Positions 1,729 through 4,478 of a stretch of 34,620 nucleotides of DNA are shown one piece after another. A model generated the notes under the pieces. It was not told the DNA's origin, did no database searches, and was given only the letters and a program-made list of their open reading frames with translations. The position numbers and the translations under genes were made by a program. The first letter of the stretch is position 1. Each line of letters starts with the position of its first letter. The stretch is from an uncultured Bacteroidota bacterium (GTDB lineage Bacteria > Bacteroidota > Bacteroidia > JABEUT01). The DNA is taken from positions 1 through 34,620 of the forward strand of contig CAIWVW010000021.1 of the NCBI GenBank assembly GCA_903916255.1. The letters are read 5' to 3'.

Positions 1729-3069
1729 ATGTTCGATAGTCTGTCAGAAAAGTTAGAAAGAGCATTTAAGATGCTCAAGGGTCAGGGAAAGATTACCGAA
1801 ATCAACGTATCGGAAACCCTGAAAGAAATACGCCGCGCCTTAATTGATGCGGACGTTAACTATAAAATTGCCAAGGAATTTACCGAAAGGGTAAAGGAAA
1901 AAGCGTTAGGCAGAAGTGTCCTAACGGCTGTTTCTCCGGGCCAGTTAATGGTAAAGATTTGCCACGAGGAACTTGCCGACCTTATGGGTAACCAGGAAAG
2001 CACCGTTTCGCTAACCGCTAATCCAACTATTATATTGATGTCAGGATTGCAGGGTTCGGGCAAAACGACATTCTCCGCTAAACTTGCCAATTATTTTAAA
2101 AATAAGAAAGGTAAAAAACCATTGCTTGTTGCATGTGACGTTTACCGCCCTGCGGCTATTCAGCAGTTGAAAACCTTGGGTGGACAGTTGGATGTTGAAG
2201 TATATTCTGATGAGAACGAAAAGAATCCCGTAAAGATTGCGCAGGCTGCCATTAAGCAAGCACGTTTGAATGATAACACTGTTGTAATTATCGATACAGC
2301 AGGCCGCTTGGCTGTTGACGAGCAGATGATGAATGAAATCGCCGAACTGAAAAAGGTGATCAATCCGCAGGAAATACTTTTTGTAGTGGATAGCATGACT
2401 GGTCAGGATGCCGTGAATACTGCTAAAGCATTTAATGATAGATTAGACTTCAACGGAGTTATACTTACCAAATTAGATGGTGATACCCGTGGTGGTGCGG
2501 CTTTGTCTATTAAATCGGTTGTAAATAAACCCATTAAGTTTGTTGGTACAGGCGAAAAGCCCGATGCAATGGATGTATTCTATCCGGCACGTATGGCGGA
2601 CAGGATTCTTGGCATGGGTGATATCGTTTCTTTTGTTGAGAAGGCGCAGGAGCAGTTTGATGTGGAAGAAGCCAAAAAACTGCAGAAGAAAATCGCCAAA
2701 AACCAATTTGATTTTAACGATTTCCTTGCACAGTTACAACAGATAAAAAAGATGGGCGGAGTGAAAGATATAGCCTCTATGCTTCCGGGAATGGGTAATT
2801 CGATTAAGGAAGGAGATATTGATGAGAAATCATTCAAGCAAACTGAAGCTATCATACAATCTATGACTCCCGAGGAACGCGCAAAGCCTGAAACTATTAA
2901 CGGCAGCCGCAGAAAGAGGCTGGCATCCGGTAGTGGAACAAACATTCAAGATGTGAATAGACTGATTAAGCAGTTTGAGGATATGCAGAAGATGATGAAG
3001 ATGTTCAGCAATAAATCGGCCATGGCCGGGCTAATGCAGCGGATGGGAAAAATGCCCTATGGCAGATAA
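1729..3069 (+). CDS. ffh: Signal recognition particle protein Ffh (SRP54)
   Basis: This SRP GTPase binds 4.5S RNA and the signal sequences of nascent membrane and secreted proteins, and docks with FtsY. The 446 residues carry the helical N domain (1-90), the G domain with P-loop G106-L-Q-G-S-G-K-T-T114, DTAGRL, TKLDGDTRGG and GTGEKPDAMDVF, and the methionine-rich M domain with the GSRRKRLASGSG RNA-binding turn and a Met-rich tail. The ATG at 1729 follows a good -7 element. In this phylum ffh is often followed closely by folD. Here a 505-bp insert lies between them, starting 6 bases after the ffh stop. Confidence 0.98.
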   Translation: MFDSLSEKLERAFKMLKGQGKITEINVSETLKEIRRALIDADVNYKIAKEFTERVKEKALGRSVLTAVSPGQLMVKICHEELADLMGNQESTVSLTANPTIILMSGLQGSGKTTFSAKLANYFKNKKGKKPLLVACDVYRPAAIQQLKTLGGQLDVEVYSDENEKNPVKIAQAAIKQARLNDNTVVIIDTAGRLAVDEQMMNEIAELKKVINPQEILFVVDSMTGQDAVNTAKAFNDRLDFNGVILTKLDGDTRGGAALSIKSVVNKPIKFVGTGEKPDAMDVFYPARMADRILGMGDIVSFVEKAQEQFDVEEAKKLQKKIAKNQFDFNDFLAQLQQIKKMGGVKDIASMLPGMGNSIKEGDIDEKSFKQTEAIIQSMTPEERAKPETINGSRRKRLASGSGTNIQDVNRLIKQFEDMQKMMKMFSNKSAMAGLMQRMGKMPYGR

Positions 3070-3074
3070 AACAG

Positions 3075-3116
3075 GATTTAAGAATAATGAATATCGAATG
3101 TAGAATATCGAAGTGA
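3075..3116 (+). repeat. Left inverted end: six 7-bp units
   Basis: Six heptamers run from GATTTAA through GAATAAT and GAATATC variants to GAAGTGA. The array is the inverted partner of 3538-3579. Confidence 0.75.
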
Positions 3117-3123
3117 AAGGCAG

Positions 3124-3510
3124 ATGGATGAAAAAATGAATAAATATGACCTTGAAGAACGATTAATAAGTTTTGCTGTTTTAATAGTTGAAATTGTTGG
3201 TGAGATGCCGGATTCAAGAGTTTCAAATCATTTAGCGGGACAACTATTACGTTCAGGAACTTCACCTGCATTAAATTATGGCGAAGCACAAGCAAGTGAG
3301 TCAAGGAAAGACTTTATTCATAAAATGAAAATAGCCCTTAAAGAATTAAGAGAAACAAACGTGTGTTTGAAAATTATATATCGCACAAAGAACTATAAGT
3401 CCAAAGGAAAAATAGAATCTGCTTTAGCTGAAACCAATGAATTACTTTCAATCTTTGTTAAAAGCGTTAAAACTGCATTGAAAAACATAGTTAAAGAATC
3501 ATCAAATTAA
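3124..3510 (+). CDS. Four-helix-bundle protein of the S23 / 23S rRNA intervening-sequence family
   Basis: The 128-residue basic helical protein has the family core QLLRSGTSPALNYGEAQ followed by SRKDFIHKMKIALKELRET. That core identifies the S23/IVP family (the TIGR02436-type four helix bundle), first known from ORFs inside 23S rRNA intervening sequences and structurally related to the Avd protein of diversity-generating retroelements. No rRNA, reverse transcriptase or variable repeat lies nearby. The ATG at 3124 is inside the conserved CAGATGG of the element end. M5 at 3136 is an alternative start that begins closer to the usual family N-terminus. The biochemical role of the family is unsettled; RNA or nucleic-acid binding is the usual suggestion. 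Confidence 0.85.
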   Translation: MDEKMNKYDLEERLISFAVLIVEIVGEMPDSRVSNHLAGQLLRSGTSPALNYGEAQASESRKDFIHKMKIALKELRETNVCLKIIYRTKNYKSKGKIESALAETNELLSIFVKSVKTALKNIVKESSN

Positions 3511-3537
3511 TTTTAAATGCCATCTGTTATTGGCTGT

Positions 3538-3579
3538 TCACTTCTTAAATCGATATTCATTATTCAATATTCTTAAATC
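3538..3579 (-). repeat. Right inverted end: six 7-bp units
   Basis: Read on the minus strand, six heptamers run from GATTTAA to GAAGTGA and mirror the left end in length, phase and terminal units. The array ends 5 bases before the folD start codon. Confidence 0.75.
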
Positions 3580-3584
3580 ACAGT

Positions 3585-4478
3585 ATGATTTTACTTGACG
3601 GCAAAAAAATATCGGAGCAACTTTTAGAGGAGATTAAAGTTGATGTAGAAAAACTGAAATCGGAAGGTAAAAAGGTGCCCCATCTTGCCGTTATTTTAGT
3701 CGGTAATGACCCTGCCAGTGAGACATACGTGGGTAGTAAAGTAAAAACCTGCGAAAGGGTTGGATTCAAATCTACACTTATTCGATTTCCTTCTACAATT
3801 GAAGAATCAGAGTTGTTGAAAAGAATAGAGGAATTAAATAACGACCCTGATTTGGATGGATTTATTGTGCAATCTCCATTACCAAAACATATTTCTGACG
3901 ATAAAGTAATCAATGCTATTTCACCTGCAAAAGATGTTGATGGATTCCATCCCGAAAATCTGGGAAGGGTAGCACTCAATATGCCAGCATTTCTTCCTGC
4001 AACTCCATTTGGAGTTATAACATTGCTCGACAGATACAACATTCCTACTCTCGGAAAACATTGTGTGGTAGTAGGCAGAAGTCACATCGTCGGGTTGCCT
4101 GTGAGCCTTTTAATGGTTCGTAATTCCAAACCGGGAAATTGTACCGTTACTATTTGCCATAGTAAAACAGTTGAATTAAAAAGTTTTACTCTGCAAGCAG
4201 ATATATTAATTGTAGCTACAGGACAAACCGAAAGTGTTACGGCCGATATGGTAAAAGAAGGAGCCGTAGTGGTTGATGTGGGTATCTCCCGTGTGCCGGA
4301 TGCGACCAAGAAAAGCGGCTTCCGCCTTGCAGGAGATGTGAAGTTTGATGAAGTAGCACCAAAATGCAGTTACATTACTCCAGTGCCCGGTGGAGTTGGG
4401 CCGATGACAATCGCTTCGCTGCTTAAGAATACGTTGGAAGGCGTTAAGCGTAGGTTTGGGGCAGGAAGTGGTAAGTGA
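3585..4478 (+). CDS. folD: Bifunctional methylenetetrahydrofolate dehydrogenase / methenyltetrahydrofolate cyclohydrolase
   Basis: FolD interconverts 5,10-methylene-, 5,10-methenyl- and 10-formyl-tetrahydrofolate in the cytosol, supplying one-carbon units for purines and formyl-methionine. The 297 residues include the signature [19 protein letters not shown] with the catalytic Y-x-x-x-K, then [12 protein letters not shown], the [15 protein letters not shown] loop, the Rossmann [13 protein letters not shown], and the C-terminal [16 protein letters not shown]. The start codon lies 5 bases after the right end of the S23 element, so the gene probably relies on transcription from ffh through the element, or on a promoter inside it. 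The stop lies 4 bases from the stop of the convergent hydrolase gene. Confidence 0.97.

Follow-up and report, generated by a model that had tools for sequence, protein, structure and literature searches.

The insert between ffh and folD

The window analysed here, the whole stretch of 34,620 nucleotides from an uncultured Bacteroidota bacterium, carries a 505-bp insert (3075-3579) that separates the genes ffh and folD, both on the + strand. The upstream host gene ffh (1729..3069, + strand; list of open reading frames, Pfam SRP54, E 7e-75) has its stop codon 5 bp upstream of the left arm of the insert, and the start codon of the downstream host gene folD (3585..4478, + strand; list of open reading frames, Pfam THF_DHG_CYH) lies 5 bp downstream of the right arm. 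The left arm (3075..3116, + strand) is made of the six heptamers GATTTAA, GAATAAT, GAATATC, GAATGTA, GAATATC and GAAGTGA, and the right arm (3538..3579, - strand), read inward, of GATTTAA, GAATATT, GAATAAT, GAATATC, GATTTAA and GAAGTGA. These 42-bp inverted ends with six in-phase 7-bp units each, described in a first-pass annotation of the sequence, are borne out by the arm alignment, in which 33 of the 42 positions and, as that annotation had also noted, 17 of the outer 18 are identical, as are units 1 and 6. The inverted-repeat score of the arms (23.2) exceeds the maximum of 500 dinucleotide shuffles (16), their period-7 scores are significant on the left (p < 0.0005) and on the right (p = 0.003), and a separate repeat search recovers the same pair (43 nt, 79% complementary). 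The tetramer ACAG adjoins both the left arm (3071..3074, + strand) and the right arm (3580..3583, + strand).

The sole substantial gene within the insert, and the only one that had been proposed for it, encodes a 128-aa S23 (23S_rRNA_IVP) four-helix-bundle protein (3124..3510, + strand, with an alternative in-frame start at 3136), which matches PF05635 (E 3.7e-14, 53.3 bits against a curated cut-off of 33.8) and TIGR02436 (E 3.6e-23, 81.9 bits against a cut-off of 24). The list of open reading frames holds no transposase gene inside the element. A Shine-Dalgarno-like GAAAGG, read from the sequence, sits at the inner edge of the left arm (3115..3120, + strand), and the motif (G)AAAGGCA is seen again at the loci L002, L004 and L053 and in an S23-less hairpin of the relative G002 (L numbers denote loci, G numbers the genomes of relatives, and G000 the 3.74-Mb genome of the window). 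The S23 family profile matches the solved chains 2RLD and 2GSC, with five chains each. To our knowledge, S23 proteins, usually annotated as 'four helix bundle protein', are common, have no known function and are tied to rRNA by name, and we know of no catalytic motif in them. Profile searches gave no match of the window protein to any Avd model and none of S23 to the Y1 families, while the S23 protein of L001 matches DivGenRetAVD (E 9e-7) and bAvd (E 2e-4), in both cases under the curated cut-offs. Ratios of dN/dS of ~0.03-0.1 indicate that S23 is under strong purifying selection. As a separate observation, the L003-orthologous S23 gene of G002 (L179, contig C81) looks frameshifted, with its arms still present.

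A dispersed family of S23 elements

The genome of the window contains 11 PF05635 matches, and ten of these S23 loci lie between matched inverted short-repeat arms whose unit varies by locus (AATTAGT, AGTAGAA, AATTAGA, AGCTATA, AGTTATA/G, AAATGAA and others), the exception (L011) being a longer protein under the family cut-off. Neither refuting condition named in the first-pass annotation holds: the other S23 genes of the genome do have similar ends, and empty sites exist in relatives (see below). S23 genes occur in 34 of 40 related genomes, with up to 12 copies, and most of the fetched loci show the same design. On a wider scale, a scan that took in 84,980 species, each represented by a single genome and many of these in draft form, returned at least 586 S23 stretches, of which the best 80, ranked by likeness to one S23 subfamily, were kept. 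An unbiased scan extended over 423 kb. The best 80 of the at least 586 span Bacteroidota, Proteobacteria, Cyanobacteria, Clostridia, Chloroflexi, Planctomycetes, Acidobacteria, candidate phyla and Methanophagales archaea; S23 was flanked by an inverted repeat scoring 15 or more at 60 of these 80 loci, against one of 80 shuffles, and the best period was 7 in 52 of the 60 that passed. When these 80 were joined with the loci of the relatives into a set of 119, scored with a slightly milder mismatch penalty, 96 of the 119 loci among the matches listed had matched inverted short-repeat arms. The window insert is thus one member of a dispersed family, in which an S23 gene lies between inverted arrays of ~4-6 units, usually of 7 bp, with a unit particular to each element lineage, and this design is very widespread in bacteria and archaea, far outside rRNA genes. 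Across loci, the units correlate weakly with the similarity of the S23 proteins (Mantel r 0.18, p 0.0005). As a side remark, a figure legend in PMC10910872 lists a 23S rRNA IVP among CRISPR-linked genes, and our guess is that heptamer arrays may have been mistaken for CRISPR-like repeats.

Genomic setting

At the 71 loci among the matches listed that have a gene on each side, as called by a simple ORF rule, S23 is co-directed with both neighbours in 59 cases and opposed to both in one, the rest being convergent or divergent, and the edges of the arms mostly lie at most ~15 bases from the upstream stop and the downstream start. Another antisense case is a Nostoc plasmid element between ribonucleotide reductase genes. 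This arrangement is most simply read as that of a gene that has to be expressed and would lack a promoter of its own. None of the 119 S23 loci among the matches listed lies inside a 23S rRNA gene (the criterion being more than one 23S motif nearby), so protein operons would be the usual home of these elements and rRNA looks like the special case. The idea of an IVS-like, mobile-looking element within a protein operon gains support from the arms at other S23 genes and from the empty sites given below, while on the same count of 119 its outward spread from rRNA does not. S23 is rare on plasmids, with 34 of 72,556, mostly cyanobacterial, and was found in none of 50,697 phage records; on these counts, spread by phages or plasmids was rejected.

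Gain and loss

Empty ffh-folD junctions, for which a comparison with close relatives had been suggested, were found in three congeners, G002 (13 bp), G008 (17 bp) and G005 (8 bp), so S23 does not stand at this place in all of them. The same junction holds S23-less inserts in G009 (108 bp), G001 (118 bp) and G006 (214 bp), and a second S23 element in G010. At other S23 sites of G000, congeners likewise have an empty site, a shared element, or a remnant that consists of a hairpin or of one arm. At the L001 site, G002 has an S23-less hairpin that retains the GGAAAGGCATGA ribosome-binding site and start of the S23-bearing copies, as would be expected of an internal deletion. Among cyanobacterial plasmids with 98% identity, an S23 element of ~420 bp is present on one and missing from the others, with presence and absence seen likewise at two more plasmid sites. 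Array length changes by whole units: the Scytonema plasmid copy L200 is exactly 14 bp, that is, two left-arm heptamers, shorter than Trichormus L195. Certain of the presence/absence patterns could be losses or recombinational replacement.

Two other sets of loci deserve mention in their own right. The same S23 element is found on two plasmids of Calothrix brevissima NIES-22 (L193, L194), where the sequence around it is nearly identical and a phage-type integrase gene lies upstream. Small S23-less inserts with inverted CGCAAAGACGC / CTCTGCGTTCTCTGCG-type repeats in G001 (L044), G009 (L045) and G008 (L183) occupy operon junctions that hold S23 elements in congeners, and look like hairpin families of another unit.

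Hairpins without S23

Besides the elements with a gene, the genomes contain many arrays of the same units. The pattern AGTTATR gave 66 array matches in G000, 122 in G002 and one in G006, an S23-free assembly that is 99% complete, with none for a reversed control pattern in these three genomes; G000 and G002 share one S23 element with AGTTATA/G arms. Arrays of the AATTAGT type (AATTASK) number 107 in G000, 105 in G002 and one in G006, and the GAATA unit of the window element is present at about nine places in G000, with S23 at only one. Among 20 AGTTATR arrays retrieved from G002, the majority are hairpins that lack S23, their arms being ~4 units and their loops ~20-40 bp long. Between orthologous hairpins of G000 and G002 the loops diverge and the arms are kept, and two of these sites are empty in G008. 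The incomplete congeners G007 and G009 have AGTTATR arrays, with no matching S23 found in them. In a comparison limited to few S23-free genomes, inverted repeats with short-tandem-repeat arms numbered none in 344 kb of S23-free sequence and 12 in 788 kb of S23-bearing sequence, a number that includes some S23 elements.

The best explanation for S23-less hairpins with shared units is that they are deleted, non-autonomous families of the S23 elements. A quite improbable alternative would invert this relation, with heptamer hairpins as primary repeats that spread by themselves, through slippage and driven by their palindromes, and S23 as a cargo or a later user. The numbers would suit such a history, since S23 copies are outnumbered by S23-less hairpins and many bacteria have an excess of heptameric repeats (PMC4692102). 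One junction can also hold different hairpin families, as at ffh-folD or at an intergenic junction with an AGTTATG hairpin in G002 (L256), an AGTAAAA-type hairpin in G000 (L268) and an empty site in G008, where either repeated insertion or unit replacement took place. It would not be expected, however, that nearly all S23 genes among the matches listed have arms, that S23 is kept under purifying selection, that hairpins are nearly absent from the complete S23-free congener G006, or that at least one S23-less hairpin looks like a deletion product, with the ribosome-binding site and start of S23 still in place.

Target sites and transposases

The window element shows terminal inverted repeats and presence/absence between relatives, as do insertion sequences and MITEs, and it could be an ordinary transposon or MITE that relies on a resident transposase (for instance of the Y1/RAYT type) or on a reverse transcriptase acting in trans, although we regard this as very unlikely. 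A known system for comparison is REPIN/RAYT (TnpA-REP), in which few protein-bearing copies are accompanied by many short, intergenic, non-autonomous hairpins with no obvious target-site duplication. The S23 elements resemble it in their few S23-bearing copies with many intergenic S23-less hairpins of the same family, in their terminal inverted repeats and in the lack of a clear duplication; they differ in that S23 has no Y1 HUH motif, that its gene lies inside the hairpin and that the arms are 7-bp arrays varying by locus. Y1 transposases are indeed found in 34 of 40 relatives, but Y1 was not matched in G019, a genome with 12 copies of S23, and no match to a reverse transcriptase (RVT_1) was obtained in G000 or in G002. 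Since their presence does not track that of S23, both enzymes were rejected as a required partner. In addition, arms that vary so freely from locus to locus would not be expected if one transposase, acting in trans, had to recognise them all.

In the case of target-site duplication, the longest word shared by the two flanks had a mean of 3.21 over the 96 loci listed with arms, against 3.25 for re-paired flanks, and such a duplication was rejected as an insertion signature, no constant duplication or boundary rule being found across these loci. The ACAG noted in the first-pass annotation is truly present on both sides of the window element; as a target-site duplication it is poor evidence, because flank repeats occur at chance level in the family and ACAG(G) also adjoins two other left-end copies in G000. 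One plasmid insertion has GTAAT on both sides (5 bp), which would suit a transposon and is probably not evidence of duplication either. We also rejected the notion that the heptamer is copied from the target site, since a unit is shared by several sites within one genome and is missing from the empty sites.

Matching of the arms

The two arms of an element are matched to each other: over the 96 loci listed, the median score of a left arm was 22 with its own right arm and 7 with the right flanks of other loci. The inward-reading strand of the arms is strongly skewed, with 32% G and 9% C. A second explanation, which we consider rather unlikely, places this matching at the RNA level, so that selection would act on the arms as a stem that RNase III cuts in the polycistronic transcript, the element being an mRNA insert that removes itself without harm and S23 an RNA-binding or an incidental protein. 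The fold predicted for 3060-3600, a region in which the first-pass annotation had envisaged a long RNA stem, does pair the arms and exceeds shuffles in stability (z -3.1), and S23 lies in sense at 59 of the 60 tandem loci among the matches listed, a bias for which the need to express S23 accounts equally. S23-encoding IVSs occur in the 23S rRNA genes of Leptospira and Coxiella. RNase III cuts the stems of ribosomal IVSs, and in the Coxiella IVS the S23 start is preceded by tandem GACAGAT heptamers, whose number varies by strain (PMC4990558). Against an RNA stem as the selected feature, the mismatches between arms, read on the S23-sense strand of the 96 loci listed, comprise 108 G.T and 133 A.C; RNA would tolerate G-U pairs, yet G.T is no commoner than A.C, which leaves the match between the arms unexplained by RNA pairing. 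Moreover, S23-less hairpins also occur outside operon contexts, as in the case of an AGTTATR hairpin of G002 (L252, C45:31000-31480) that lies between two tRNA-gene-like sequences. RNase III may nonetheless cut such stems in the transcript. The mismatch pattern points rather to arms that would be matched at the DNA level, either via hairpin-templated copying or via selection for a paired DNA form.

At ffh-folD, the units are GAATNNN in G000 and GATTNNN in G010, with the phase kept and both arms altered, and the G010 assembly (84% complete) has a GATTA array at no other place, so that the change from GAATNNN to GATTNNN arose within one element; genome-wide homogenisation was rejected as its cause on the same ground. 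At the shared sites L007 (G000/G002) and L034/L037 (G008/G004), the arms are nearly identical and the synonymous sites of S23 are saturated (pS 0.70 and 0.78). In multi-copy families, arm conservation could result from gene conversion between copies and not from recognition.

Discussion

The observations fit a model, to which we give an even chance, of a predicted promoterless S23 element that rides on operons, is accompanied by non-autonomous hairpins and has its arms matched at the DNA level, and in which a ring of S23 would recognise its own heptamers. The elements occupy the few bases between operon genes, in sense, and S23 would be made from host transcripts, as suggested by its orientation with the operon and the apparent lack of its own promoter. 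The S23 ring, a homopentamer, would bind its own heptamer array in cis and in trans, and would lend specificity to the maintenance and copying of the hairpins, while catalysis would be left to enzymes of host replication or repair that work on the hairpin. The arms would be kept matched either by one arm templating the other in the hairpin or by selection for the paired DNA form. We infer the recognition step because it would explain the conservation of the unit within a lineage, the hairpins that accompany S23 and the joint drift of unit and protein. Finally, the ribosomal S23 IVSs would be elements of the same kind, caught in rRNA.

The likeness to rRNA IVSs lies in their size (~430 bp), in an S23 ORF within terminal inverted repeats that is part of a host transcript, and in complementary ends, which in the window element can form a long stem around the S23 ORF. 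Unlike them, window-type elements reside in protein operons, their arms are inverted arrays of locus-specific heptamers, they come with S23-less hairpin families, and their S23 gene is under strong purifying selection, in contrast to the ORF of Coxiella, for which decay has been reported. On this evidence ribosomal IVSs look like a special case of S23 elements, and the origin and function of the S23-bearing IVS were called unclear in the Coxiella paper (PMC4990558). The Avd proteins of diversity-generating retroelements belong to a related four-helix-bundle family, but these retroelements differ in their reverse transcriptase, for which G000 and G002 have no match.

Heptameric repeats have been described in other settings, such as GGGAATC in Xanthomonas and GGGGAYT in Nostoc, with 70-75 inverted pairs per Xanthomonas genome, where, according to that report, they are in general not linked to mobile elements (PMC4692102), TAACTGA in Beggiatoaceae, Cyanobacteria and Bacteroidetes, often beside start codons (PMC4679880), and the heptanucleotide elements with many copies in Geobacter (PMC2700814). 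They share with the arms described here the 7-bp unit, the intergenic location and, in part, the inverted pairs, and differ in that window-type arms enclose an S23 gene; the main texts of these three papers make no mention of S23. Nor was any description of S23 genes inside inverted heptamer arrays outside rRNA found in the open-access literature of PMC, subscription papers lying outside this search.

More tentatively, as a proposal that is possible rather than probable, S23 elements may constitute a distinct, un-named class of mobile hairpins of bacteria and archaea, in which a non-enzymatic ring would read its own heptamer code and drive copying by host enzymes, with the code drifting to a private unit in every lineage; this class would then also take in ribosomal IVSs and a large share of those heptameric repeats of bacterial genomes that lack an explanation. 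With the heptamers that flank its own gene, the S23 protein gains a candidate partner, and two puzzles that had been described separately, the S23-bearing IVSs and the abundant heptameric repeats of bacteria, are joined. The whole suggests a system of elements that would spread without a recognisable transposase, and whose ends would stay matched to each other while their sequence drifts.
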